From: Bdellovibrio sp. SKB1291214
GTDB lineage: Bacteria > Bdellovibrionota > Bdellovibrionia > Bdellovibrionales > Bdellovibrionaceae
Direction of reading: 5' to 3'
DNA length: 64,000 nucleotides
Assembly (NCBI RefSeq): GCF_002209355.2
Contig: NZ_CP106855.1
Span: forward strand, 2,790,001-2,854,000
This document shows, piece after piece, positions 3,900-23,185 of the stretch. Under the pieces are notes generated by a model. It saw only the letters and a list, made by a program, of their open reading frames with translations, did not search any database and was not told the DNA's origin. The position numbers were made by a program, and so were the translations under genes. How positions within the stretch are numbered: the stretch's first letter is position 1; each line of letters begins with the position of its first letter.

Positions 3900-4619
3900 A
3901 TGAAAATTCTGTGCTGGGTTCTTCCCTTATTTTGTATTGCTGGTTCTGTGGAAGCCAAGGTTGCTAACCTTGTGACTTTTCCGATTCCTTTATTAGTCGA
4001 AAACAAAGAAAAAGGTTTATTCATCGATTTGACTCGAGAAATTGCGAGTCATGTAAAAACCAAATTCCGAGTTCAAGTCTTGGCGGCAAACAAAGCCAAA
4101 CTGGCTTTTTTTAACGGCAAGGTTGAGGGATATTTTCCCGGATTGGACAACTCCGTCCCTAAAGACGCCGTCAGAACCATTCCATTTTATGTTCGTACCA
4201 ATTACATTTTCTATCGCGAAAATAAACCGTTTAAAGAGTTAAAAGACCTTTATGGAAAAAATGTCGGCCTGACTTTCCGCTATCATTATCCTTCGCAAAT
4301 CCAAGACAACACCAAAATTAAATTCAGTTACGCCGAAGACGACATCGCTAATATGAAAAGGCTTGCAGCCGGTGACATTGATGCCGTTATCGTTGAAGAG
4401 CGCTCGGGTCTGCGCGCCCTAGAGATCAGTAAAGCCAAGGGCGTTAGCTACAGCAAGGAAAGTCCTGTTTCCAATCAAGATTGCTATTTTGCTTTTAAGA
4501 ATGATCAAGAAGGTCGAAGTCTTCAGAAAGAATTCAATGTGGCTTTAGAGAAAATGAAAGCCGATGGAAGTTTGCAAAGAGTCCTGAATCAATCAGAACC
4601 CTTTGCCTTCAAAAACTAA
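3900..4619 (+). CDS. Periplasmic solute-binding protein, SBP_bac_3-like
   Basis: A 239-residue secreted protein with signal peptide (MKILCWVLPLFCIAGSVEA, cleavage after VEA). The order of segments fits the amino-acid/polar-solute binding family: a first lobe ending near FPGLDNS, the hinge motif FKELKDLYGKNVGLTF, a second lobe with MKRLAAGDIDAVIVEE, and the C-terminal LEKMKADGSLQRVLNQ helix. It would sit in the periplasm and deliver a small ligand to an importer, or serve as a sensor. No permease or ATPase lies beside it, so the partner is unknown. The ATG has no clear ribosome-binding site. Its 3' end overlaps the convergent vWA lipoprotein gene by 4 bp. Confidence 0.75.
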   Translation: MKILCWVLPLFCIAGSVEAKVANLVTFPIPLLVENKEKGLFIDLTREIASHVKTKFRVQVLAANKAKLAFFNGKVEGYFPGLDNSVPKDAVRTIPFYVRTNYIFYRENKPFKELKDLYGKNVGLTFRYHYPSQIQDNTKIKFSYAEDDIANMKRLAAGDIDAVIVEERSGLRALEISKAKGVSYSKESPVSNQDCYFAFKNDQEGRSLQKEFNVALEKMKADGSLQRVLNQSEPFAFKN

Positions 4620-5905
4620 TTATTGCTTGCGCCGAATGGTGCAGGAACCAAGTCTACAGCAAAGCGTGCGCCTTCTGTGTATTGGTACTTGATATCGCCC
4701 GAAAGTTTCACAGTATTTGAGCTCGCGTCGTATCTCCAGCCACCGTTGCCTTTGTAAGGAATCAGCTGGCCTTTGCCTTGAGCTAGCTCTTCTGGAGTAC
4801 CGTAGCGGACGCGAACCATCAAATTCCCAGATTCGTCGATACGAGGAAATTGGCTTAAACCGATTTCTTTTTCCAACGTTTTAACTGTGATCGAATCACC
4901 CATGCGACCCAATTCAGTGCCGAACTTTTCAGAAACGATGTTCATGATATACTTTGAGCGAATTTGCGCTGGGTTGCCACTGCCTTCATTCGCTTTAATA
5001 ATCATGGATTCCAAACGATCCGGACCGAAACCTTCTTTACAAGAGCCATTGTTTTTACCGTTCGTAAAGCATTCTTTGTGATACGTAGGGTGAACGCGTA
5101 AGCCGTAGTCTTTGTATTGATCTGGGGTATTTTTTGAAACCAATACACCATATACAGAAACTTTATCTTTTTTGCCGCCTTTGAAATCAATCAAAGTTTG
5201 CGCCATTTGTTCAGGAGTGATGCCAGCATCAGCGTCATCAGCATCAGTCAAAAAGATTACAACTAATTGAGCGTCGTCACGGAAGAAGCCTTCATTTGTT
5301 CCACCACGACCAATGCGTTGTTGATTTAGCGCAGCGGCAAGGGGAGTGAAGAATTCTTCAGTTTCCGGACCACCCATTTCATATCCCGCAACTCCAACTT
5401 TTAGAGTTGAAGCAAGAACTCCAGCAGAATCCTTTTTAGTGACAAAACGTTCAGTCGAATCGGTTCCTGCGATGGTTTTTGCAAAACGAAGTTCGCCTTT
5501 TTCAAAAGCGTCTGCCTTTTTGTAACCTGGAGCTTTAGGGTCATTCCAGTGTTTTCCATCCCAAGTAGTCACAACACCGATATGGTAGTCGATCATCTTG
5601 TTACTTGTGATGCCACTTGTGAAGCGATTTAAGTTTTTGATCAAGTTCGCTTGCGCCGTCTTCATAGAGTCGGAGTTGTCCATAACGAACAGGATATCAA
5701 CGCGGGGGTTGAAGTCGAGTTGGCTTTGGCCGCCGTCCTCAGTAATCCAATTGAACTGCTGGTCAGCAATTGTTGGGTAAACTGGGATTTTAGCTTTTTG
5801 GTCTTGAAGTTCTTTTTGTGAAAGCATCGTTCCTGATTCTTTTGCACAAGCAGACAGAAGCAAGAATGCCGAAAGATAAATGCAAAGAGCTATAAGTGGT
5901 TTCAC
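4616..5905 (-). CDS. vWA-domain lipoprotein, CglB-like gliding adhesin candidate
   Basis: A 429-residue predicted lipoprotein: hydrophobic leader with lipobox LLSAC (lipidated Cys20). A von Willebrand A domain begins near residue 68 with VDILFVMDNSDSM; D76, S78 and S80 form the DxSxS part of a metal-ion (MIDAS) site, and VVIFLTDADDADAG supplies a later acidic loop. Two more cysteines (HKECFTNGKNNGSC) could form a disulfide. It is the last gene of the gliding-type operon and overlaps the preceding gene by 4 bp, so it is translated with it. In Myxococcus the gliding adhesin CglB is also a vWA outer-membrane lipoprotein of similar length; the functional match is inferred from domain and context. 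Confidence 0.75.
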   Translation of the reverse strand: MKPLIALCIYLSAFLLLSACAKESGTMLSQKELQDQKAKIPVYPTIADQQFNWITEDGGQSQLDFNPRVDILFVMDNSDSMKTAQANLIKNLNRFTSGITSNKMIDYHIGVVTTWDGKHWNDPKAPGYKKADAFEKGELRFAKTIAGTDSTERFVTKKDSAGVLASTLKVGVAGYEMGGPETEEFFTPLAAALNQQRIGRGGTNEGFFRDDAQLVVIFLTDADDADAGITPEQMAQTLIDFKGGKKDKVSVYGVLVSKNTPDQYKDYGLRVHPTYHKECFTNGKNNGSCKEGFGPDRLESMIIKANEGSGNPAQIRSKYIMNIVSEKFGTELGRMGDSITVKTLEKEIGLSQFPRIDESGNLMVRVRYGTPEELAQGKGQLIPYKGNGGWRYDASSNTVKLSGDIKYQYTEGARFAVDLVPAPFGASNN

Positions 5906-6969
5906 ATTTTTCTCCTAACGTTCTGAGCGCATGACTTAGTCACAACGTCATATTTATCCAATTCGTCAATCCATGGACGGCCGTCATCTTTAAAGACCAA
6001 TTGGTCAGAGTTCGTCTCTTGGAATTTACCTTCAGAGTAAGCAGAGTCCGCTAGTTGTTGGTCGGTGTGAACGCGTTGAATTGCTTCCACTTCAACCAAA
6101 TTCAATTTGCCGATGATGCGTTTGTTTTCAACTGTTTCATCTGCTGCCAACTGTTGCATACGAACTTTCATATTTACGAAAGACTCTTTATTGATTTGAT
6201 CCAATTGAGTTTGCAAAGTTCTTTGTGTGTTGTTAGCAGCCAAAACTTCCATACCTTTTTGGCTGGCTTTAAAGCGAAGCATTTGTTTTTGTAATTCCAA
6301 GTCTTTATAGAAAAGAACTGGAAGCTTCAACATAGAGTCGCCCATGTCTGCCGCTGTCAAAGGGAACTTATCGGCTTTTTTCAAAACGTTTAAGAAAGCT
6401 TCGTTGAAGCCTTCTTTAGACAAAGCTTGAACAGACGCGATACGATCGCGTTGTTTTTCTTTGAATGCTTGAGTTGTTTTGAATACAGACTTGTAATCAC
6501 AAATCTTTAGCTCTGCCAATGATTGCAAGAAGTAAGCTTCTGCATTTACAACTTCCGCAAATTGCGGGCTGATCAAAGTTTTGGATTGAGCCAAAGCTTT
6601 TTCAGGACTGTTCATACGGAACTGAGCCCAGCCTTTTTCTTCAACAACTTGGAACCAGTAATCAGAACCACGTGGAACTTCATTGTAAAGAGCAAGAGCT
6701 TGAGAGTATTTACCTTGGGCAAATAACTCACGGGCTTTTTTAATTTTGTTTTTAGCGTTGTTATCATCTTTAGAGATAGCAACTTTGCCTTCTAGATTTT
6801 TAAAGTCCAACAACTCTAATGTCTTTTTGCCGGATTTGTCAGCTAAGGAAGCTTCCAGGGAATTTCCCCAGTCCTTGACTGAAAAACGCTCAGCAGCCAA
6901 AGCGTTGTGACCAACACTTAAAGCCGTGACCATTAGAAGTTGAGAGACTAGCGACGTTTTGGAAATCAT
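5902..6969 (-). CDS. TPR periplasmic protein of the gliding operon (AglT/GltE-like)
   Basis: A secreted protein of 355 residues. I placed the start at the ATG at 6969, which overlaps the stop of the upstream gene as ATGA; three codons earlier is another ATG. The signal peptide runs from MISKTSLVSQLL to NALAA. A tetratricopeptide-like repeat is visible at KKARELFAQGKYSQALALYNEVP, followed by long alpha-helical stretches (KASQKGMEVLAANNT, QTQLDQINKE) and an acidic, tryptophan-containing tail DDGRPWIDELDKYD with a cysteine near the end. This layout resembles AglT/GltE of Myxococcus gliding machinery, a periplasmic or outer-membrane TPR component. The assignment rests on layout and context, not on alignment. 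Confidence 0.6.
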   Translation of the reverse strand: MISKTSLVSQLLMVTALSVGHNALAAERFSVKDWGNSLEASLADKSGKKTLELLDFKNLEGKVAISKDDNNAKNKIKKARELFAQGKYSQALALYNEVPRGSDYWFQVVEEKGWAQFRMNSPEKALAQSKTLISPQFAEVVNAEAYFLQSLAELKICDYKSVFKTTQAFKEKQRDRIASVQALSKEGFNEAFLNVLKKADKFPLTAADMGDSMLKLPVLFYKDLELQKQMLRFKASQKGMEVLAANNTQRTLQTQLDQINKESFVNMKVRMQQLAADETVENKRIIGKLNLVEVEAIQRVHTDQQLADSAYSEGKFQETNSDQLVFKDDGRPWIDELDKYDVVTKSCAQNVRRKM

Positions 6970-7751
6970 AAAATCCATCCAAAGCCAAGGTTGCCAGTTA
7001 CTACGTCCAAAGAACGCTCACCTGTTACTGGTTTGTCAGTGTAATTCATGTAGCGGATCTCAGCGCGAGCCGTTAGATGTTTAGACATCCAAGCGCCAAT
7101 ACCAAGACCAGCTGTGTAAACCGGAGTAGAACCGCTAGACAAAGTGATTTGACCACCGCCACCAAGTAAGTACATGTCAAACTGAGTAACGCCGATATCC
7201 ATGAAAGATGTCTTACCATAGATAGGGTACCAGTTGATAACCGCCATCAAAGCGCTTTCAGGATAATCGATATCCACTGCATAAGCACGGCCACCAGCTG
7301 CGTAGTTTGCCTTTGCTTGATCGAAGATGCGCTTACCTTCTGGTGTCAAAGAGTTACCGTAGTCATAGTATCGTGCACCCAAAGACCAACGAGGAGTGAT
7401 GTGGAAATCAAGGGCTGCGCCCAAAGCTTGAGTTTTCGTGTAAGCGTCGCCACCGAAATTCATTCCGTAGTTTACACCAACCTCTAAGCGATTGCGTCTG
7501 TCAACGATACGCTCTTGAACGATACGAGAGCGGCTTTCAGACTTGATATTTTGAGCCATATTCATCAATTGCTCATTGCCTCCCAAAGAGTCGATATCAC
7601 TCGTTACATCTGAGTTATCAACTGGTGCGGCTTGAGTTTTAGTAACAGCTGCTTTTTTAGGAGCAGTTCTTTTCGCAGGGGCAGCGAATGTGCTCTGAGA
7701 GCAAAGTGCGATGAACAAGAATGTTGCTGAAAGGAATTTAACGTTTTTCAT
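6966..7751 (-). CDS. Outer-membrane beta-barrel protein of the gliding operon
   Basis: A 261-residue protein with signal peptide (ends TFAAP), a low-complexity Ala/Lys/Pro stretch, and a C-terminal half of alternating amphipathic strands typical of an eight-stranded barrel: RLEVGVNYGMNFGG, HITPRWSLGARYYDYG, ALMAVINWYPIYG, YTAGLGIGAWMSKHLTARAE. It ends GNLGFGWIL, with no terminal phenylalanine. In Myxococcus the Glt complex contains small outer-membrane barrels, and this is the likely equivalent. It ends inside the start of the next gene (ATGA overlap) and lies 2 bp after the upstream lipoprotein gene. Confidence 0.65.
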   Translation of the reverse strand: MKNVKFLSATFLFIALCSQSTFAAPAKRTAPKKAAVTKTQAAPVDNSDVTSDIDSLGGNEQLMNMAQNIKSESRSRIVQERIVDRRNRLEVGVNYGMNFGGDAYTKTQALGAALDFHITPRWSLGARYYDYGNSLTPEGKRIFDQAKANYAAGGRAYAVDIDYPESALMAVINWYPIYGKTSFMDIGVTQFDMYLLGGGGQITLSSGSTPVYTAGLGIGAWMSKHLTARAEIRYMNYTDKPVTGERSLDVVTGNLGFGWIL

Positions 7752-7753
7752 AA

Positions 7754-9148
7754 CTATTTTGCCTCCGCAGCTTTTTTAGCAGCTGTTTCAACTGGAGCAG
7801 CGCAAAGCTTTTTGTCTTTAGCTGCTTTCAAAGTTTTCAAAGAGTAATCAGTCACGTCAGAGATACGACCGTTCAAAGTGCTTGTCGCAGCTAAATCGAT
7901 CGAACCTTTAAGAGTTTTAGAAGTCGCATCGCAAGGAACTTCCCAAGTCAAAGTACAGTCTTGCTTATGGTTGCCTGTAGAAGAAACCGCGCAAGAAACT
8001 TGTGGATTGCCTGGCAAGACAGAGTTTTTAGTTTCTACTGCCACAACTGCGTTTCTGTTGTTTGAAGAAGCAGAGAAGTGAAGAACGATCTTTTCGCCCG
8101 GAGAAACTTCGAGCCCTTGCTTGCCGAGACCAGAAACGTCAAAGCGAGGAGCTGTAATTGTTTTTGTGTAAACAATTTTAACCTGAACCAAAGTTTCTGG
8201 TGTCGAAAGACCATTAGGGCTGAAGGCCTTAACCGTGAAGCGAACACGAGTGCCATCGGCTTGTGACATAATACTGCCGTTTTGAGCTAATTGAGGTTGA
8301 ACTGCGATGTTTTTAGTATCGAAGATCAAATTGAATTTCCATTTAGAGTTACCAAGGTACTCAGGCTCTTTTTTAGAAAGGTCAGCGATAACGTAACGAG
8401 AACCATCAAGCTCTTGGTAGTCTTTACCGATTGAAGTCGCTTGACCATCGTAGCTGATCAGAGGACGAGGTTTCTGAGTGGATTTACCATCGATACCTGG
8501 AACCGTTACAATTATAGAGAATGGTGTCAATTGGTCTTCAGAAACTTCAGCGTTCAAGCCGGAAACTTTCAAAGAAGACGGAGCGATTGTTGTTTTAGTT
8601 ACGAAAAGAATTTTATCAAGTTCCTTAACCATACCTTTTAAAGTAGCTGCATTTTTCGCCTGACCAGCGTCAGTAACAGTTGCAACCAATTTGATTTGGA
8701 TGGACTTCAATGCGCTGTCAGATCCCACCGTGTACATAGGTGGATTCCAAGAAAGAACATAAACGTCTTTTTCAGTTGGAGATGGTCTTAAAGATGCGCC
8801 ATCTGGAAGGTTTGTCGCAGTCAGGCCGACAGTTGCACCTGGAACTGGTAGGGAAGCGCGGATCGAATAAGATTTAGCTTCGCCTTCTTTAAAGATCATT
8901 TCAGAGTCTGCAGTTAACAAGATCATAGAGCTTGTCACGCCTGTTTCTTTGATGATTTTCTCAACTTGTTTTTCAACGACAACTTCGTTGGTTACTGTTC
9001 GAGGTTTATCTGGACCCATCTCAGTGATCGTCTTTGCTTGAGCGCGCATGTCTTGAAGGTCCGAAGACGGACTCTTCTGCCAGCCATCACATGCTGTGAG
9101 AGCCATTGCTGCTGGGATCACGATCATCAAACTTTTTACCGTCTTCAT
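7754..9148 (-). CDS. Lipoprotein with Ig-like beta domains, gliding operon
   Basis: A 464-residue predicted lipoprotein; lipobox ALTAC puts the lipidated cysteine at position 20. After a short helical linker (NEVVVEKQVEKIIKETG) it is rich in beta strands. Segments such as VPGATVGLTATNLPDGASLRP and EVSPGEKIVLHFSASSNNRNA look like immunoglobulin/cadherin-type sandwich domains, with about three units between residues 75 and 430. The tail is Ala/Lys rich (ETAAKKAAEAK). Paired cysteines occur in the last unit. It probably sits in the outer membrane facing the periplasm and links barrel and TPR parts of the gliding apparatus. The Ig-like fold is inferred from strand pattern only. Confidence 0.6.
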   Translation of the reverse strand: MKTVKSLMIVIPAAMALTACDGWQKSPSSDLQDMRAQAKTITEMGPDKPRTVTNEVVVEKQVEKIIKETGVTSSMILLTADSEMIFKEGEAKSYSIRASLPVPGATVGLTATNLPDGASLRPSPTEKDVYVLSWNPPMYTVGSDSALKSIQIKLVATVTDAGQAKNAATLKGMVKELDKILFVTKTTIAPSSLKVSGLNAEVSEDQLTPFSIIVTVPGIDGKSTQKPRPLISYDGQATSIGKDYQELDGSRYVIADLSKKEPEYLGNSKWKFNLIFDTKNIAVQPQLAQNGSIMSQADGTRVRFTVKAFSPNGLSTPETLVQVKIVYTKTITAPRFDVSGLGKQGLEVSPGEKIVLHFSASSNNRNAVVAVETKNSVLPGNPQVSCAVSSTGNHKQDCTLTWEVPCDATSKTLKGSIDLAATSTLNGRISDVTDYSLKTLKAAKDKKLCAAPVETAAKKAAEAK

Positions 9149-9176
9149 ATAAACCTCTCAAGTACCTTTATTCAAA

Positions 9177-10409
9177 CTAGCGAGCAGATACGCGCATCAA
9201 TTCGAATGGGTAAAGAACATCTACGTTTACTTTTCCTACTGGTTTCGGGAACTGCCATGATTTCATTTTCGCGATCATGCAGTTTTCAACAGTGCGCGAA
9301 CCCAATGAGCTTTGCGCTACTTTTGCTGTTGTGATACGACCATTTGGTCCGATCACGAAGTCTACCGCTACACGACCACCGATAGATGGTTGAGCTTGAA
9401 GACCTTGTTCATAACAATATACGATTTGACCTTTGTTACGGTTGATAACCGCGATGATTTGGTCACGATCCAAACCACCTTCAACAGTTGCTTCAGCATC
9501 AAGAGGAAGACTGGAAGCTGCTGTGCCGCCAACCATATTCATCTTACCGTAACCAGCTCTGCCGCCACCAACACCACGAGTTCCGTAACCACCAGCACTT
9601 TGTGCTTGGCCACCTTCACCCGCAGAACCAGCGATCAAACCATTACCCGGAAGGTAACCTTTGATACCACCGCGACCTGCAGAACCGACACCGCCACCAC
9701 CAGAACCAACACCCGCAGAACGGATAGCTTTCATGGAGTTGTTGTCAAGACCCTCGAAACCACGAGTGCCTTTCGGTGTACCACCAAGAGCCGCCAATGC
9801 GCCTACGCGTTGTACGCTTTTCGCTTTGTTCGTGTTCACTGTGTATTTCTTAACTTTCAAAGGTTGTTTCTTAACGACTGGTTTATACACCTTGTTAGTC
9901 TGTTTGATTTTTTTCTCAGACATCTTAACGTGTGGAACCGGTTTTTGTTCAGCAACCTTTGGAGTCTCCTGTTTTGGAACCACGATAGTTACCAAAGGAG
10001 CTTCATCTTTTTTAGTAAAGTAGTGAGCCACGACATAAGTGCTCAGCATGATCAAGGCAACTGCCACTAAGTGACCAACTGCTGTACGAGACAACATGAT
10101 TTTTAGTTGTTCTTCGTCTCGCTCTTCCGTCAATGTGTACTGAGGGCTGTTTACGTCAGCTTCAGTAGCCAAACGAATACGACCCAAACCAGTCAGCGCT
10201 TCACCTTTGGTGCCCATCTTAGAAAGATCGATCTTTTTAAGAAGGCTGTAGGCGATATCATTGTCCTTAAGAACTTTCAAATCTGCCAAGGCCTCAACAC
10301 GACGTTGATCCTTTAGGTAAACGATGTTCAAGGACTCTGAATCGACCGCAATCGTACGGACTTTTTGGCCCGCGATATTTTCTAAAATTAGTAGTTTTGC
10401 TGCGTTCAT
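9177..10409 (-). CDS. TonB-C-domain, glycine-rich inner-membrane protein (AgmX/GltG-type)
   Basis: A 410-residue protein with four visible parts. The cytoplasmic N-terminal domain (about 1-108) has LADLKVLKDNDIAYSLLKKIDL. One membrane segment follows (about 109-131, HLVAVALIMLSTYVVAHYF). Then comes a Lys/Pro-rich periplasmic linker and a glycine-rich stretch (GVGSGGGGVGSAGRGG). The C-terminal TonB-like domain begins near DRDQIIAVINRNKGQIVYCY and contains a second cysteine (VENCMIAKMKSWQFPKP). This C-terminal form, with paired cysteines and the NKGQIVYCYE motif, is the AgmX/GltG/GltJ type seen in Myxococcus gliding. It would couple the inner-membrane motor (TolQ/TolR-like genes upstream) to outer-membrane parts. 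No GYF or zinc-ribbon domain is present at its N-terminus. Confidence 0.8.
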   Translation of the reverse strand: MNAAKLLILENIAGQKVRTIAVDSESLNIVYLKDQRRVEALADLKVLKDNDIAYSLLKKIDLSKMGTKGEALTGLGRIRLATEADVNSPQYTLTEERDEEQLKIMLSRTAVGHLVAVALIMLSTYVVAHYFTKKDEAPLVTIVVPKQETPKVAEQKPVPHVKMSEKKIKQTNKVYKPVVKKQPLKVKKYTVNTNKAKSVQRVGALAALGGTPKGTRGFEGLDNNSMKAIRSAGVGSGGGGVGSAGRGGIKGYLPGNGLIAGSAGEGGQAQSAGGYGTRGVGGGRAGYGKMNMVGGTAASSLPLDAEATVEGGLDRDQIIAVINRNKGQIVYCYEQGLQAQPSIGGRVAVDFVIGPNGRITTAKVAQSSLGSRTVENCMIAKMKSWQFPKPVGKVNVDVLYPFELMRVSAR

Positions 10410-10418
10410 ATTTACGTC

Positions 10419-10685
10419 CTAGTTTCTTTTCTGATCATCAGCCATTCGATCATTAAATTCTTTTCTTCCGGCCAACAGATCTTCCAACAATTTATCGTTC
10501 TCTACCGTCGCTTTCGTATTCAGAGAGCTTTGGTATTTTCCGCGAAGCGCACTTCCATCAAACTTGAATGAGGTGCCTAGTTGCGGTTTGTTCCCTTCGG
10601 CCTTCTTAGCTTTGTTTGCAGCTAAAGCGCCTTGGGCACCCAGCATACTCAGCAAGAAGGGCGCCAACAAAATGAGCGTTTTCAT
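10419..10685 (-). CDS. Small secreted protein of the gliding operon
   Basis: An 88-residue protein with a clear signal peptide (MKTLILLAPFLLSMLGAQG, cleavage near ALAAN). The mature part is short and charged, with FKFDGSALRGKYQS followed by a predicted helix (DKLLEDLLAGRKEFNDRM). I do not recognise the family. It overlaps the large TPR gene upstream by 4 bp and precedes the TonB-C gene by 9 bp, so it is a genuine operon member and probably a periplasmic accessory part. FDGSALRGKYQSS may be a docking peptide, but that is only a guess. Confidence 0.65.
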   Translation of the reverse strand: MKTLILLAPFLLSMLGAQGALAANKAKKAEGNKPQLGTSFKFDGSALRGKYQSSLNTKATVENDKLLEDLLAGRKEFNDRMADDQKRN

Positions 10686-13639
10686 AGGCTTTTTCCTCTC
10701 TGTAATTGATTTAAACGGCCTTCCAGGTACGAAGCCATAAGTGGATGGCCCATTTTTGTCTCTAGAGTTTTAAGTTTTACAATCTCACCAGCGTTGTTAG
10801 GCTCAGCTGCAACAGACTTGCGAGCCGAGGCTAAATCAGAGGCACTTGCCTGTGACGAATTTAGCGCATCCGATACCGCAGACTTCATTTTGCCACTCGC
10901 TTGTAATTGAGTGATCAAAGTCATTTCGCGCTTAAGGATGTTTTGGATCTCAGGACGGGCAGTTCTGTAGTCCTGAGCCATTTGCGCCAATGCCGACGAG
11001 TTATTTAAAAGATCTTGTTCGCGTTGTTCCGCGAATTTCGCCTTCATCAGGTAGGGTTTAGATTTAGCCTTCAAGATACCCACGTACTGAGCTTGTTCTT
11101 GAGGTGTCAAACCTTTAGGCATAGGCAAATTCACCAGATCGCGAACCATTCTATCGTTTTCGATAGCCACGACCTCAAGAGCCATCAGCTGAGCTGTGAT
11201 GTCACGAGTACGGTTAGCATCAGCAAGTAGGGCATCAGCCTTTGCTAAAAGCTTAATACGCTCCGTGATATCTCTTTGCATTTGACGGTCTGATTTCGTC
11301 GAAATCATGTGAGCCGCGATCTGACCTTTAAAGTTAGCAGCTTTGCTATAGAAAGGTTGTTTTTGGATAAACTGAGCCGCAGAGCGGTTGCGGATCTCTT
11401 TCATATCCAGAACTGATCTCAAGCTGTTGCTCATACCGTTGCGAGCGAAAACCAACAAGGCAGTTTCATTCAAAACAGCTGGGCTACGACGAAGCTCTGA
11501 AGATTGAGCTTTCAATTCTGCGGCAGGGTTTGATGACATCAAAACGAGGCGAGTGCGCATAACCATGGCACGGTCACCCTTGATGCCCAATTTCAAAGCC
11601 GCACGGTAGTGACGTTGTGGATTCATGTTAGCAAGGTCCGCCAAGGTTCCCAAACGGAATTCACGGTCTTTTTCTGAGACCTTAGGCATTTTCAAGCGAA
11701 GAGCTGTTTTGTACGCATTCGCGAAATCTAATTTCTTCTCATAGTAACCAGTCAATTGCTCAAGCAACGCTTCTTTGCGCGCGGCCGAAACATCTGAGGC
11801 GATCAGTTTGTTTAACGCTTGAACGTAGATCTCATCTTCGCCCAGTTTTTGGGCCATAATGGATTCATTCGTATAGAACAAAACCTTTTCTTCAGCATTT
11901 GCAGAAGCCAAGTTTGTATTCGTGATACGTTTCAATACCGTGCGCATATCAGATTTTGACGAGTTCGGATTGTTCGCCAAAGCTGCCGCTTGATTCATCA
12001 AAGCTTTGCGAGACGTCGCTTCAAATTCAGCTTTGTGAGCCGGGAAGATTGCCGCATAGTTTGCAGCCAATTCTTGAATTTGCTCGTCATTTTTAAGTTG
12101 AGCCAAGCTATCTAAAGCCAGGTCCGCAGACTTTTTACGAAGTTCTGGTTTACCTTTTTTATCAGTTGCAAGATCGTTGAATGCAACCGCGGCTTCTTTA
12201 AGCTGTTTTTGTTGATAGTTCAAATAAGCCATTTGGTAACGAACTTCGAAAGATTTGCCTTCATCTTTACCTTTTTTAAGGAAGTTGATGTAGGCCGCTC
12301 TTTGCAAATTCACGTCGCCAGATTTTTCACCTGCTGCCACTTCGTTAAGAAGGGCGTTCTGACGCTCTTTATCCGACAAATCAGAGTTGTCAGAGATTGC
12401 ACGGTAAAGCTGAGCCGCAACAGCTGGTTTACCCATATCCATTGCAACTTGTGCCCCGCGAGTCGTCATCTCCGTATCTTCTGGGAATGTGTTCGCATAA
12501 ATCACATACGAGTTCAAAAGATCTTGATCTGGTTTTAATTTTTTAGAACGGTGAAGCTCCGTTACATAAGTCTTCATCGTCTTTTTCAACTCTTCACATT
12601 TAGATGGATCTTTGCACGTATTTTTAAAAGCTTTAGCCGCTTTTTCAAAGTCACGAGTGGATTGACCTGTTTGACCACGATCGTAGTTGATTTTCGCCAT
12701 ACGTACGAAAGCTTCAAGAGTCTCTGTATCAGACAAACCTTCTTGATCCAGGTAGCGACTTAAGATGTCGTGAGCCGCTTGCTTTTGACCAATGCGGTCC
12801 GCTTCTTGTGCAAAGTTTAAAAGTAATTCTTTACGTTTTTCTTTAGGGGAGAGGACTTCAAAGCGAGCAATTTCACGAGTCGTGATGTTTCTGCGCGCAT
12901 AGAAAGTACCAAGGTCACGCACGATATCAGCATGGAAAACTGGATCGTACTTAGATCCTTCTTCGGTATCGCGCGTGATTAGTTCAGGCTTAGAAAGCAA
13001 GCCTTCCATAGTTTTTACTGCTGGATTAAGCTTGTCCTGGTTGAAATCACACCAAGCCATATTGTAGATCACCAAAGCACGGTTTTGAAGTTTTCTGTCC
13101 TTCAAAGCCACTTCGTAGTTTGCTTTGGCCTCTTTAAATTTACCTTTTTGGAATAGTAAATCACCCAACTCGGCATGCGAGCGGGATACGATATCAGCAG
13201 AGATTGATTTTTTCTTTGCATCTTTAGTGATGCTTTGGAAAAGTTCGATGGCTTTATCATTTTGACCAGCCATTTGGTACAAGTGACCCAATTGGAACAA
13301 AATCGGACCGTGTTCGTTTAATTTAACTTGGGACAGGATGCTTTCGTAAATTTGAATCGCTTTTTGGCGATCTGCTTTAGAGCCTTTGCAGCCGTCACAA
13401 TTGGCTTCAACTTCTTGCATAAAGCGCGTACGAGCTCTTTCTGCAAGTGTATCTGCCAAACGTTGTTGCGTTGGTACCCACGAAGGATCTTTAACATCCA
13501 TCGCCTTAAGAACGCGCTCCATCTTGCCGACGACAAGATCTTGCGTGTCGGAGTTCATCTTTTCCGCGCGAGCGATCTGTGTATACAGAGCGCCAGCCAG
13601 AATCGGACTAATAATTAGGAGGCGTTTAAGTGTTCTCAT
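10682..13639 (-). CDS. Large periplasmic TPR protein of the gliding operon (AgmU/GltD- or GltI-like)
   Basis: A 985-residue protein, signal peptide MRTLKRLLIISPILAGALY with cleavage near ARAEK. It is almost wholly helical, with many tetratricopeptide units: AIQIYESILSQVKLNEHGPI, LGHLYQMAGQNDKAIELFQS, GDLLFQKGKFKEAKANYEVA and further degenerate copies to about residue 650. A Cys pair (ANCDGC) lies near residue 80. The long C-terminal third (QREQDLLNNSSALAQMAQDY) is coiled-coil-like. Size and repeats resemble the large TPR proteins of Myxococcus gliding (AgmU/GltD, GltI). It overlaps the TolR-like gene upstream and the small secreted gene downstream by 4 bp each. Confidence 0.7.
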   Translation of the reverse strand: MRTLKRLLIISPILAGALYTQIARAEKMNSDTQDLVVGKMERVLKAMDVKDPSWVPTQQRLADTLAERARTRFMQEVEANCDGCKGSKADRQKAIQIYESILSQVKLNEHGPILFQLGHLYQMAGQNDKAIELFQSITKDAKKKSISADIVSRSHAELGDLLFQKGKFKEAKANYEVALKDRKLQNRALVIYNMAWCDFNQDKLNPAVKTMEGLLSKPELITRDTEEGSKYDPVFHADIVRDLGTFYARRNITTREIARFEVLSPKEKRKELLLNFAQEADRIGQKQAAHDILSRYLDQEGLSDTETLEAFVRMAKINYDRGQTGQSTRDFEKAAKAFKNTCKDPSKCEELKKTMKTYVTELHRSKKLKPDQDLLNSYVIYANTFPEDTEMTTRGAQVAMDMGKPAVAAQLYRAISDNSDLSDKERQNALLNEVAAGEKSGDVNLQRAAYINFLKKGKDEGKSFEVRYQMAYLNYQQKQLKEAAVAFNDLATDKKGKPELRKKSADLALDSLAQLKNDEQIQELAANYAAIFPAHKAEFEATSRKALMNQAAALANNPNSSKSDMRTVLKRITNTNLASANAEEKVLFYTNESIMAQKLGEDEIYVQALNKLIASDVSAARKEALLEQLTGYYEKKLDFANAYKTALRLKMPKVSEKDREFRLGTLADLANMNPQRHYRAALKLGIKGDRAMVMRTRLVLMSSNPAAELKAQSSELRRSPAVLNETALLVFARNGMSNSLRSVLDMKEIRNRSAAQFIQKQPFYSKAANFKGQIAAHMISTKSDRQMQRDITERIKLLAKADALLADANRTRDITAQLMALEVVAIENDRMVRDLVNLPMPKGLTPQEQAQYVGILKAKSKPYLMKAKFAEQREQDLLNNSSALAQMAQDYRTARPEIQNILKREMTLITQLQASGKMKSAVSDALNSSQASASDLASARKSVAAEPNNAGEIVKLKTLETKMGHPLMASYLEGRLNQLQRGKSL

Positions 13640-14121
13640 TGTTTTGGTACCACCGCAAATTTAAGTTTTTCGATACCTGCCAAGGAACCAGCCTTGATGA
13701 TTGGATCTAGGTCAGCGTATTTCATTTCGGTGTCAGCTTGGATCATCAATTCGATTTCTTCTTTAGAGTCTTTTTTCAAAGCTTCTAGTTTTGATCCCAA
13801 CTGGCTTCCGACAACACGTTCGTCATTTACGAAGTAATTGCCTTTTTCGATTCTCAAAATCGCCATTTCTTTATCCACACCTTGAGCGTGTTCTGCGATT
13901 GGCAGATTCATTTGACCACTTTTAACTTCAATACCGTTTGATTGCGTACCAATTAAAAGATAGATCACGATGATAGAAAAAGCGTCGATCAATGATGTTA
14001 ACGGCAACGCCAGAGCCAAGTTGGCTCCGCCAGAGGATTTCTTTTTACCACCTGGTTTTAGCGTTTGAGTTTCCATCAAAGGAGAACGTTGTTTATTGAC
14101 GTTAACAAATGAAGTTCTCAT
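13636..14121 (-). CDS. TolR/ExbD-like motor subunit (second copy)
   Basis: A 161-residue biopolymer-transport protein. Its single membrane helix is ALPLTSLIDAFSIIVIYLLI, with the essential aspartate of the family (SLID). The N-terminal cytoplasmic part is basic (GGKKKSSGG), and the periplasmic domain has MILRIEKGNYFVNDERVVG-like strand order (seen as EMAILRIEKGNYFVNDE). With the TolQ-like and other TolR-like genes it would form a proton channel that powers movement, as AglR/AglQ/AglS do in Myxococcus. Two TolR-like proteins per TolQ is exactly the AglRQS arrangement. The start at 14121 has AGGGT upstream; an internal ATG at residue 16 is possible. Confidence 0.8.
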   Translation of the reverse strand: MRTSFVNVNKQRSPLMETQTLKPGGKKKSSGGANLALALPLTSLIDAFSIIVIYLLIGTQSNGIEVKSGQMNLPIAEHAQGVDKEMAILRIEKGNYFVNDERVVGSQLGSKLEALKKDSKEEIELMIQADTEMKYADLDPIIKAGSLAGIEKLKFAVVPKQ

Positions 14122-14125
14122 ATAA

Positions 14126-14587
14126 TTACCCTAGTGGGGACAAGCCCACGCCTTCAAATGAGTTTTGCTTCAACTTATCCATCACTCGGATCACATCACC
14201 ATAATTGGTCTGTGCGCCGGGACGAACAATGCTTGTTTTAAGATCAGGCCATTGGGCTTTCAAAGTTTTCAATTTTGCTTCAAGAGTTGTTAGGTCCACA
14301 CCTTGAGCAGATCTAGCGATACGGTCTTCTAAAGTTTTAGCTTTAGGAATATCGCGCAAAGAAAGTTGCATACTGCCGTCTGCTTCCATCGTCACCCATA
14401 GTGACGGGGGATTCACAGCTCCAGCAGTGGAGTTGTCGCCAATGGCTTGCTTCGTATCAAGAGTACCGATTTGCAACCATACCGCCGTCAAAAGCAAGAA
14501 GCAGATGAGTACGGAAAGGATGTCGAGGATCGGTAGGATATTGATCTCGAAGTTTAATTTGTCGTTGTTACCTGATGATGCGCTCAT
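14126..14587 (-). CDS. TolR/ExbD-like motor subunit (first copy)
   Basis: A 153-residue protein of the ExbD/TolR family. The membrane helix NILPILDILSVLICFLLLT carries the conserved aspartate (PILD) that carries protons at the interface with TolQ-type subunits. The periplasmic part has the short strand-helix order of the family (SIVRPGAQTNYGDVIRVMDK is the usual end region). It lies 25 bp after the TolQ-like gene and 4 bp before the second TolR-like gene. Role as in AglQ/AglS of the gliding motor is inferred from the gene set. Confidence 0.8.
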   Translation of the reverse strand: MSASSGNNDKLNFEINILPILDILSVLICFLLLTAVWLQIGTLDTKQAIGDNSTAGAVNPPSLWVTMEADGSMQLSLRDIPKAKTLEDRIARSAQGVDLTTLEAKLKTLKAQWPDLKTSIVRPGAQTNYGDVIRVMDKLKQNSFEGVGLSPLG

Positions 14588-14612
14588 AAAGCCCTCTCAG
14601 TTATTAGTTTAA

Positions 14613-15293
14613 TTACTTAAGTGCTTTTTCTTTTTTGTCAGAAACTGGAGCGTAGTGGTAACCAAGTTGGATGAACAAATTCAAAGCGGCTTTATTCAAA
14701 TCCTCAGTCAAACGAGTCGCTCTGTTTTGCAAGACCGCGTACATGATCAACGCTGGAACCGCTACTACTAGACCGTAAGCTGTTGTATTCATCGCCAAAG
14801 AGATACCTTGTGACAAGATCGCTGCTTTTTCTGCTGGGTTCGCGTTAGCGATACCGGCGAAAGAGTGGATCAAACCAGTGATAGTACCCAATAGACCCAA
14901 CAACGTTGCTACGTTGGCAAACATCGCCAAGAAACCGATACGTTTTTCAACACGGCTAGATTCTTCAAGAAGGATTTCATCCATTTTAAGTTGGATCTCT
15001 TCTTTACCACCCATATCAATAGCTGCCTGGATGCCTGCAGAAGCCACAACGCCCAATGGTTGCGTCAAACCCATTTGCATAGAGCGACGTAGTGCCTGGT
15101 CCAATTTGCCGGCTTTAATGTCGTCTGCGATCGTTTTAGACATATCCTTTTGGTTGACCTTGCGGTTCATGAACAAAGCAATAGAGCGCTCAGCAATAAT
15201 AGCTACAGATACGATTTGAGCAGCCAAGATAGTCCACATCCAAATTGCATCTCCTGAAGTAAAACCGCGACCAAGTGACATTAGAAATTCCAT
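14613..15293 (-). CDS. TolQ/ExbB/MotA-family motor protein (AglR-like)
   Basis: A 226-residue inner-membrane protein with three membrane segments: IWMWTILAAQIVSVAIIAE (about 17-35), FANVATLLGLLGTITGLIHS (about 125-145) and AMNTTAYGLVVAVPALIMY (about 167-186). The long cytoplasmic loop between the first two is typical of TolQ/ExbB, and GLLGTITGLIHSF plus the TTAYGL-x-VAVPA motif are signature. It would form the proton channel with the two TolR-like proteins downstream. It is the first gene of the ten-gene operon, with a good ribosome-binding site (CCGGAGGA, 6 bases before the ATG) and a sigma-54 promoter about 40 bp upstream. Confidence 0.85.
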   Translation of the reverse strand: MEFLMSLGRGFTSGDAIWMWTILAAQIVSVAIIAERSIALFMNRKVNQKDMSKTIADDIKAGKLDQALRRSMQMGLTQPLGVVASAGIQAAIDMGGKEEIQLKMDEILLEESSRVEKRIGFLAMFANVATLLGLLGTITGLIHSFAGIANANPAEKAAILSQGISLAMNTTAYGLVVAVPALIMYAVLQNRATRLTEDLNKAALNLFIQLGYHYAPVSDKKEKALK

Positions 15294-15333
15294 GTATATC
15301 CTCCGGGGTTAAAAGTTTTCCCGAAGCCTTATG

Positions 15334-15349
15334 AGCAAGGCCAGTGCCA
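15334..15349 (-). promoter_or_regulatory. Sigma-54 promoter of the gliding operon
   Basis: Reading the minus strand, TGGCACTGGCCTTGCT matches the -24/-12 consensus TGGCAC-N5-TTGCW at every fixed position, with the required 12-base offset between GG and GC. Transcription would start near 15323, leaving a leader of about 30 nt that contains the ribosome-binding site of the TolQ-like gene. Sigma-54 promoters need an enhancer-binding activator; none is encoded in the window. Confidence 0.75.
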
Positions 15350-15538
15350 TGGAATAAAAGCCTGCAATCAGGTACTTGCCTCAACTCGAGACGTCTAAAT
15401 TGTCACTGAGAGACAAAATTTGGCGCACTTTGAGGCGTTCCGTAAGATTCCGAAAGGACTCTTTTTTCTCTAAAAAGAGGGGTGGAACCGTCAAAAACTA
15501 AGGCATGGTCCCGTTTCATTGTGAAACGGTTTTCGCAT

Positions 15539-15567
15539 AAAAAAACCGATCCTTTGCGGGGATCGGT
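15539..15567 (-). terminator. Intrinsic terminator of the M14 peptidase gene
   Basis: On the minus strand ACCGATCC-CCGCAAA-GGATCGGT is followed by a run of seven T. It lies 32 bp beyond the stop codon and insulates the gliding operon. Confidence 0.85.
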
Positions 15568-21763: not shown

Positions 21764-22204
21764 AAATTCCCCCTTCAAAAAATTATCCAAGGCCCGGGCC
21801 CCCTTCACAACATGTAGCATTGCAAAAAAGGCACCCGCCGATTTTTGGAATTCGGGTCAGCACACGCATCGCGTGAACATTTTATATCGCGCTGCTGGAG
21901 CCAAAATGAACATCACTTGGAAACCAATTGCGAAATCGAACCTGCTCAATTTTTAGGCTGCGTCGCCTCTTGTTCGCGGAAATATTAGATTATTGTCAGA
22001 ATTTGGTGTTGAAATAGGACTGAAGTCCTGGCACTTTCATTGCTTATGTTCAAATTGGCTCCATTTTGGGACCACTTTGAAAGTTTTAGGTGAAGGCAAG
22101 TGAATGCGAAACGACAGCCAACTGAGTGAGCTGGAACCAATCATTAGAGTTTATTTAAAAGTATTTACGATTAACAACGATTCGACAAAAGGGGATTCAA
22201 ACCA
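21764..22204. other. Divergent promoter region between the helical protein and the barrel gene
   Basis: This 441-bp region contains the sigma-54 promoter at 22029-22044 and, just before it, the short palindrome GGACTGAAGTCC. The expected leader of about 150 nt before the barrel gene is unusually long and contains a weak CAGC...GCTG hairpin near 22117. I found no protein-coding gene in it. Confidence 0.5.
22029..22044 (+). promoter_or_regulatory. Sigma-54 promoter of the outer-membrane barrel gene
   Basis: TGGCACTTTCATTGCT matches TGGCAC-N5-TTGCW at every fixed position. The start would be near 22056, about 150 bases before the GTG at 22205. Confidence 0.75.
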
Positions 22205-23185
22205 GTGAAAAAACAAATCATTTCATCACTGATTTTGGCAGGTTCTTTGGTTGCAGCAGTATCTGCTCATGCTGAAGAGAAACAAACAGCAAACACAAGT
22301 TCAGTTAAAGTAACTGACGTTCAAAAAAAGGACGAGACAGTTCCAGGTGACTTGGATCAAGAAATCACAAACGCAAAAATGCGTGCTGAATCTGGTTCTA
22401 AATCTAAATGGTCTATCTCAACATCATTGAATTACAATGGTGGTAACCTTGAGACTCCATTCAGCGCGAAACGTCCGAATTATGCGGGTGTTTCCACTCA
22501 AGATACTTCGACAAGCATGTCTGCAGATATCGCTGTAGCGCTTCGTTTGACTTCTCGTGATCAACTTCGCTTGGGTACTGGTGTGACTGTTAAAACTCCA
22601 TTCCAAAACACATACGAAGAGTCAACAAACCAAAATGGCGCAAGAAAAGCAGCTGCTTCTGCTCCTTACGTTTCTTGGGGCCGTTCATTCCGTGCTTGGA
22701 ATTTGCAACAATCTATCGGCGCGACAGGTTCTTATGAAACGAACCCAAGCTATACAGACGCGGGGTATATCGGTACAGGTTCTGTTGATTACACAATCCT
22801 AGGTGAAATCCCGAACTCAAACTGGCAACCAGGTTTCGCAGTAACTATCGCTTACACAGCGTTCAGCGACGGCGCACTTGCTTCTGACACAGCTTCAAAC
22901 ACTGAGATGGGTCGTTCAGATTACTCCATCGGTTTGTATCCATTCATCGAATACGCATTCAACGACAGATACTCGTTCAGAACAGTATTCCGTCCAGCAA
23001 ACTTCGATCACTACCGTAACGACTCTGGCGACACGTTCTACCACAACATGTGGACGCAATCAGTAGGTGTTGGTATCGCGGTTACTCGTGACATTTACTT
23101 GTACCCGAATTTCCAATTCGCTCCTGAATATGTACAAGCTGACACTACGAACGTCGGTATGTCTGCTACAATCAACGTATTCTAA
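22205..23185 (+). CDS. Outer-membrane beta-barrel protein
   Basis: A 326-residue secreted protein beginning with GTG (read as Met): MKKQIISSLILAGSLVAAVS, cleavage after AHA. After a charged linker of about 35 residues there are roughly twelve alternating strands (KWSISTSLNYNGG, SMSADIAVALRLTSRDQLRL, WNLQQSIGATGSYETN, YSFRTVFRPANFDHY, DIYLYPNFQFAPEYVQA), ending in NVGMSATINVF with the terminal phenylalanine recognised by the Bam complex. It is probably a 12-stranded porin-like or channel protein. I do not recognise the family. It has its own sigma-54 promoter and terminator, so it is a single-gene unit under activator control. Confidence 0.8.
   Translation: MKKQIISSLILAGSLVAAVSAHAEEKQTANTSSVKVTDVQKKDETVPGDLDQEITNAKMRAESGSKSKWSISTSLNYNGGNLETPFSAKRPNYAGVSTQDTSTSMSADIAVALRLTSRDQLRLGTGVTVKTPFQNTYEESTNQNGARKAAASAPYVSWGRSFRAWNLQQSIGATGSYETNPSYTDAGYIGTGSVDYTILGEIPNSNWQPGFAVTIAYTAFSDGALASDTASNTEMGRSDYSIGLYPFIEYAFNDRYSFRTVFRPANFDHYRNDSGDTFYHNMWTQSVGVGIAVTRDIYLYPNFQFAPEYVQADTTNVGMSATINVF

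Follow-up and report, generated by a model that had tools for sequence, protein, structure and literature searches.

Bdellovibrio HD100 carries four clusters of gliding-type motor genes that differ in their expression. Expression of the Bd0412-0420 cluster is raised 4-7 fold 30 min into predation but not during host-independent growth, and this cluster is the only one of the four that is predation-induced; the other three clusters (Bd0828-0838, Bd1473-1483, and Bd2368-2377) display the reverse pattern and are expressed in host-independent cells (PMC2797640). The Bd0411-0421 proteins reach their maximum at 45 min to 1 h, those of Bd2368-2377 at prey exit (PMC12546842), bd1480 of the Bd1473-1483 cluster is surface-induced (PMC9140294), and Bd0838 of the Bd0828-0838 cluster is needed for attachment (PMC6561027). 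FliA accounts for the attack-phase promoters, and growth-phase start sites are unmapped (PMC3627812). Here, a ten-gene operon on the minus strand (15293-4616) and the putative sigma-54 (RpoN) promoter in front of it were analyzed in a stretch of 64,000 nucleotides (nt) (positions 2,790,001-2,854,000, referred to as the window) of the single-contig, 3.68 Mb genome of Bdellovibrio sp. SKB1291214. The analysis argues with reasonable confidence that the ten genes form one RpoN-transcribed operon that starts at position 15323, is triggered by an activator at prey contact or entry, and produces an Agl-Glt-type invasion motor.

Conservation of the -24/-12 promoter

Judged by position and gene order, the operon fits as the orthologue of HD100 Bd0412-0420 (Bd0411-0421). 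The aglR homologues of genome G006 at 0.398, 0.787, 1.40, and 2.28 Mb fit Bd0412-0420, Bd0828-0838, Bd1473-1483, and Bd2368-2377. The window AglR is 87% identical to the AglR of the Bd0412-0420 type and 37-51% identical to those of the other three clusters, all ten genes match HD100 Bd0412-0420 in order and strand (protein identity 49-87%), and the same gene order is found in other Bdellovibrionota. The region upstream of aglR contains two features:

15334-15349, minus strand: sigma-54 (-24/-12) promoter TGGCACTGGCCTTGCT, exact match to the TGGCAC-N5-TTGCW consensus
15545-15567, minus strand: intrinsic terminator that ends the M14 peptidase gene located upstream, identified by sequence scan

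An earlier note, made from the sequence alone, had named the -24/-12 site as the only visible promoter, with a start site near 15323, and the scans lead to the same two predictions. The site is the only credible promoter predicted in the leader: the minus strand from the terminator to the start codon holds no sigma-70-type site with at least 9 of 12 matches, the best sigma-70 match in the leader reaches 8/12, and the best FliA match 7/11. The terminator (15567-15545) is predicted to insulate the promoter from the upstream M14-peptidase unit. With the start site at 15323, as predicted from the geometry of the -12 element, the leader is about 30 nt long and includes a GGAGG ribosome-binding site.

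To what extent the promoter is conserved was analyzed by scoring the best TGGCAC-N5-TTGCW match (maximum 11) in the 130 nt upstream of 27 aglR orthologues. All 27 orthologues score 9-11, compared with 6-8 for the reversed pattern; the chance per locus is 0.034 for a score of at least 9 and 0.0026 for at least 10, and a score of 11 was reached in 0 of 10,800 resamplings. The distance between the site and the aglR ATG is 49-86 nt in the 27 loci (45-86 nt with contig L046 included), and the orthologues with the promoter span the genus and reach another family of the order (G047 and G052). The TGGCAC and TTGCT positions are 81-100% conserved (TGG and TTGC 100%), whereas the immediate upstream flank displays 30-67% and the spacer mostly 30-56% conservation (74% at one position); the stretch just downstream, toward the transcription start, is fairly conserved (up to 81%). 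No site scoring at least 9 of 11 was found before the aglR paralogues of other gliding-type clusters (0 of 20, plus 0 of 3 in HD100; maximum score 8). This contrast with paralogues in the same genomes is a stronger argument than the orthologue counts.

The exact pattern occurs twice in the window (0.09 expected from shuffles) and eight times in the genome, compared with two occurrences of the reversed pattern. A scan that allowed one mismatch returned 133 matches compared with 116, the level of background, and was discarded; as a consequence only near-exact sites were counted. The background frequency of one-mismatch sites is the point in favor of a chance match with a sigma-70-family promoter driving the operon, but the presence of the site in 27 of 27 orthologues and 0 of 23 paralogues, together with a leader free of credible sigma-70 or FliA sites, makes this explanation highly improbable.

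The other exact match in the window (22029-22044, plus strand), which shows that this promoter type is not unique to the motor operon, precedes an open reading frame (ORF; 22205-23182) for an unrelated, uncharacterised exported protein of 326 amino acids. The pairing of such a site with this gene is found in 6 of 6 Bdellovibrio genomes. A box particular to this pairing (GGTGTTGAAA...GGGACCAAAGTC) is conserved upstream, which hints at a different activator. Among the paralogous loci, the Bd2368-2377-type (prey-exit) clusters have a conserved palindrome-centred GGACCATGGTC on the 5' side of aglR (L228 12702-12712; L327, L329, L330, L332, and L333), a possible operator of the exit-type motor. Only three aglR-type genes are present in the species analyzed here and in its closest relatives, G012 and G022, and the Bd2368-2377-type cluster appears to be missing from them.

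Candidate activator sites and the sigma-54 machinery

The genome encodes an RpoN protein (a 480-amino-acid ORF on L227) in which the activator-interacting, core-binding, and DNA-binding domains are all present (Pfam). The genes flgF and fliL are classical sigma-54 flagellar targets. Six Bdellovibrio genomes contain a total of 60 exact -24/-12 sites, compared with 7 for the reversed pattern, and 39 of these sites are found repeatedly in front of homologous genes, flgF included; fliL is preceded by one -24/-12 site, in the strain W-like genome G013. In Bdellovibrio, -24/-12 sites that match the consensus nearly exactly thus seem to be functional. Almost all co-occurring sigma-54 target genes lack a Pfam or NCBIfam assignment. 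Different target groups bear different conserved upstream boxes, as is expected if separate activators serve separate groups. In two genomes (L002 and L223) an exact site precedes the gene for an extracytoplasmic function (ECF) sigma factor, a possible sigma cascade. RpoN of HD100 is bd0843 (PMC3464611), and a multi-phylum survey of sigma-54 regulons from 2025 does not mention Bdellovibrio (PMC12316311). A literature search, with most subscription papers beyond its reach, found no link of RpoN to HD100 Bd0412-0420.

Upstream of the promoter, two candidate upstream activator sites were identified:

15388-15406, minus strand: candidate activator site GTGAC-N9-GTCTC, located 57 nt ahead of the -24 box, a degenerate variant of the dyad (GTGAC-N10-GTCAC) found in sister species
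15410-15428, minus strand: putative second, decayed copy GTGCG-N9-GTCTC, aligned by eye in register with the GTGAC-N10-GTCAC of the sister species L122/L123

Of the 27 loci, 26 contain one or more GTGAC or GTCAC half-sites upstream of the promoter (null 0.17); the most common arrangement is a GTCAC that starts 61-65 nt ahead of the -24 box. In 10 of 27 loci (null 0.0004 per locus) two half-sites form an exact dyad, separated by 6-11 nt and in most cases arranged as GTGAC-N10-GTCAC. In spacing and dyad symmetry the element resembles an enhancer bound by a sigma-54 activator. A composite search of ten genomes for GTCAC or GTGAC at the same distance from a -24/-12 site returned mostly the motor operon promoter; the other matches were a gene for a secreted protein, in three HD100-like genomes, and two isolated matches. 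A more far-reaching interpretation can be put forward only tentatively: a dedicated sigma-54 enhancer switch (GTGAC-N10-GTCAC plus the -24/-12 site) may sense prey attachment or entry and fire almost only this gliding-type motor, each paralogous motor having its own trigger and RpoN marking the invasion stage.

A total of 11 candidate AAA+ activators (bacterial enhancer-binding proteins, bEBPs) are encoded in the genome, none of them within the window, and a phylogenetic profile of the bEBPs, compared between relatives that have the operon and relatives that lack it, pointed to no dedicated activator.

An exact genome-wide search for GTGAC-N10-GTCAC matched three loci, none of them before the motor operon, and is uninformative by itself. 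Two further genes carry similar elements. The 16-mer TGGCACTGGCCTTGCT is found in identical form at G000:3183175-3183190 (L009), where it precedes the gene for an exported protein of 412 amino acids (L009:210-1448) and two direct GTCAC repeats are located about 85-105 nt upstream; this gene may share the activator of the motor operon. A candidate for co-regulation is the conserved gene of a lipoprotein (L167, L170, L199, and L004) that has a sigma-54 site and, in G013 (L167), also an exact GTGAC-N10-GTCAC dyad.

Gene content of the operon

The ten genes, from the first to the last in the direction of transcription, are:

14613-15293, minus strand: AglR-like TolQ/ExbB/MotA-family proton-channel subunit (PF01618, 1e-29; 87% identity to the HD100 orthologue)
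14126-14587, minus strand: AglQ/S-like TolR/ExbD protein 1 (PF02472)
13636-14121, minus strand: AglQ/S-like TolR/ExbD protein 2 (PF02472)
10682-13639, minus strand: exported TPR protein of 985 amino acids in the GltD position (TPR families, without a match to the GltD model)
10419-10685, minus strand: exported protein of 88 amino acids without fold assignment or family match, with orthologues in all loci
9177-10409, minus strand: GltG-like envelope-spanning protein with a TonB-C domain (AgmX/PglI C-terminal; NF033760, NF033768, TonB_C)
7754-9148, minus strand: lipoprotein of 464 amino acids with predicted tandem beta-sandwich (Ig/cadherin-like) domains (AlphaFold mean predicted local distance difference test, pLDDT, 76.6)
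6966-7751, minus strand: outer-membrane beta-barrel (GltA/GltB-type) of a myxobacterial-type family (TIGR04565, 103.6 bits, cut-off 60)
5902-6978, minus strand: GltC-like TPR protein (NF033756, 42.7 bits, cut-off 450)
4616-5905, minus strand: vWA/MIDAS lipoprotein, CglD/MIDAS-adhesin-like (VWA, 21 bits; below cut-offs)

All ten genes were confirmed in the ORF list at the positions that the earlier note had given, with intergenic distances (5' to 3') of +25, +4, -4, -4, +9, +28, +2, -13, and -4 nt. The short gaps (at most 28 nt) and many overlaps make a single transcription unit plausible, in agreement with the note. The family matches (Pfam and NCBIfam) comprise MotA_ExbB, two ExbD/TolR, TPR, TonB_C (GltG-like), an outer-membrane beta-barrel (TIGR04565), a GltC-like TPR, and vWA. 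The core trio of AglR, AglQ, and AglS is represented, in order, by MotA_ExbB and two ExbD proteins. The 985-amino-acid TPR protein shares 64% identity with its HD100 orthologue and 28% with its paralogue in the Bd2368-2377 cluster. The TonB-C protein matches the GltG model NF033760 over its C-terminal half with 137 bits (cut-off 650) and NF033768 with 102 bits (cut-off 40); a score below the equivalog cut-off classifies it as a relative of GltG rather than GltG itself. The beta-sandwich lipoprotein retrieved only generic Ig/cadherin repeats in a fold search of the PDB, and a BLAST search of the paralogous gliding-type clusters found no counterpart, confining it to this cluster type. The vWA lipoprotein scores 29.8 bits against the CglD model (cut-off 400) and 30.9 bits against the Bdellovibrio MIDAS adhesin model NF052240 (cut-off 700) and thus reaches the curated cut-off of neither family, but its MIDAS residues (DxSxS and TDAD) are invariant across six orthologues. 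A structure model of this protein (pLDDT 44) was too poor for use.

The core complex was defined according to group B of Luciano et al. (AglR/Q/S, GltG, GltC, GltD, and GltE). Family models recognised neither GltE nor GltF, H, I, J, or K among the ten genes, and the GltJ model matches only the C-terminal domain that it shares with the TonB protein. GltH-K are absent from the HD100 genome (PMC3169522). With these components unrecognised and a single beta-barrel in the operon, the description of the motor as complete in the earlier note was overstated. The product is probably an envelope machine of Agl-Glt type that is powered by protons, and the conserved MIDAS residues together with the modelled beta-sandwich domains suggest that the two lipoproteins form a gripping surface end.

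The TolQR- and TonB-like parts would also suit an energised transporter or secretion machine of the TonB/Tol type that operates in the bdelloplast and does not move the cell. This alternative was raised by the authors of PMC2797640, and homologous core complexes are found in non-gliding gammaproteobacteria (PMC3169522). However, the nearest family matches are to the gliding proteins GltG and GltC and to a myxobacterial-type barrel family, and the MIDAS and beta-sandwich lipoproteins suit a surface grip, so that a transporter appears unlikely, though it is the strongest of the alternatives to an invasion motor.

Stage of expression and comparison with known systems

The earlier note had predicted that the motor is switched on at a defined stage. 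Stage-specific control agrees with the presence of the promoter in 27 of 27 orthologues and 0 of 23 paralogues and with the upregulation of the HD100 operon at 30 min of predation. The stage dependence is thus well supported, and the expression pattern is best taken to indicate prey entry and the early bdelloplast, not gliding at large. A related possibility is that the -24/-12 site is real and drives a general surface-gliding motor in response to surface contact, as the Agl-Glt-like gene content and the surface induction of bd1480 (PMC9140294) might indicate. But bd1480 belongs to Bd1473-1483, a different cluster with no sigma-54 site upstream of its aglR, and the HD100 orthologue of the window operon is predation-induced and, unlike the other three clusters, not raised in host-independent cells (PMC2797640), which leaves surface contact as a rather improbable trigger.

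Several points weigh against an RpoN-driven invasion operon. The 27 orthologues are mutually related and do not represent independent trials, and the expression data stem from another species, with orthologues that are 49-87% identical. The start-site map of HD100 covers the attack phase only (PMC3627812), and a promoter active after prey entry would therefore have been missed. Both activator-site copies in the window are degenerate, with one true GTGAC half-site, and the orthologue L139 contains no GTGAC or GTCAC half-site. Furthermore, for 10 of the 11 bEBPs a reciprocal best hit exists even in genomes without a close aglR (G025, G027, and G030); bEBP L186 is not reciprocal in these genomes yet matches an activator there.

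In the favored mechanism, RpoN polymerase would wait as a closed complex at the -24/-12 site, keeping the operon silent, while a conserved bEBP would bind the candidate GTGAC/GTCAC sites, which lie some 60-80 nt ahead of the -24 box, and would open the complex upon attachment to or entry into the prey, the presumed signal. The operon would then produce an Agl-Glt-type envelope motor in which proton flow through the TolQR-like stator drives a TonB-like (GltG) and TPR linkage across the periplasm that reaches the barrel, the beta-sandwich lipoprotein, and the MIDAS lipoprotein at the outer membrane. In view of the expression of the HD100 orthologue, the likely use would be movement into, or settling within, the prey periplasm. 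Gene activation in Bdellovibrio after the attack phase is largely obscure, and the conserved promoter with its candidate enhancer provides a concrete entry point; finding the activator of this invasion-linked operon would open a route to tracing the prey-entry trigger. It also offers a regulatory explanation for why the genus retains several similar motors.

Among the described systems, HD100 Bd0412-0420 shares the promoter of the window operon but carries an intact GTGAC-N10-GTCAC dyad. Bd0828-0838, Bd1473-1483, and Bd2368-2377 share homologous AglR, TolR, and most other parts with the window operon; they differ by lacking the -24/-12 site and by their expression windows (host-independent growth, surface, and prey exit). 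The flagellar flgF and fliL promoters of Bdellovibrio relatives contain the same -24/-12 element but, unlike the motor operon, no GTGAC/GTCAC half-sites and are therefore probably served by another activator. Compared with the Agl-Glt system of Myxococcus xanthus, whose GltE/F/H/I/J/K have no recognised equivalent in the window operon, the latter shares the AglRQS-type proton channel and GltG-, GltC-, and barrel-like parts and is distinguished by its single contiguous organization, its sigma-54 promoter, and the additional MIDAS and beta-sandwich lipoproteins. A parallel is found within M. xanthus itself, where Nfs, the sporulation relative of Agl-Glt, is likewise a stage-specific paralogue.

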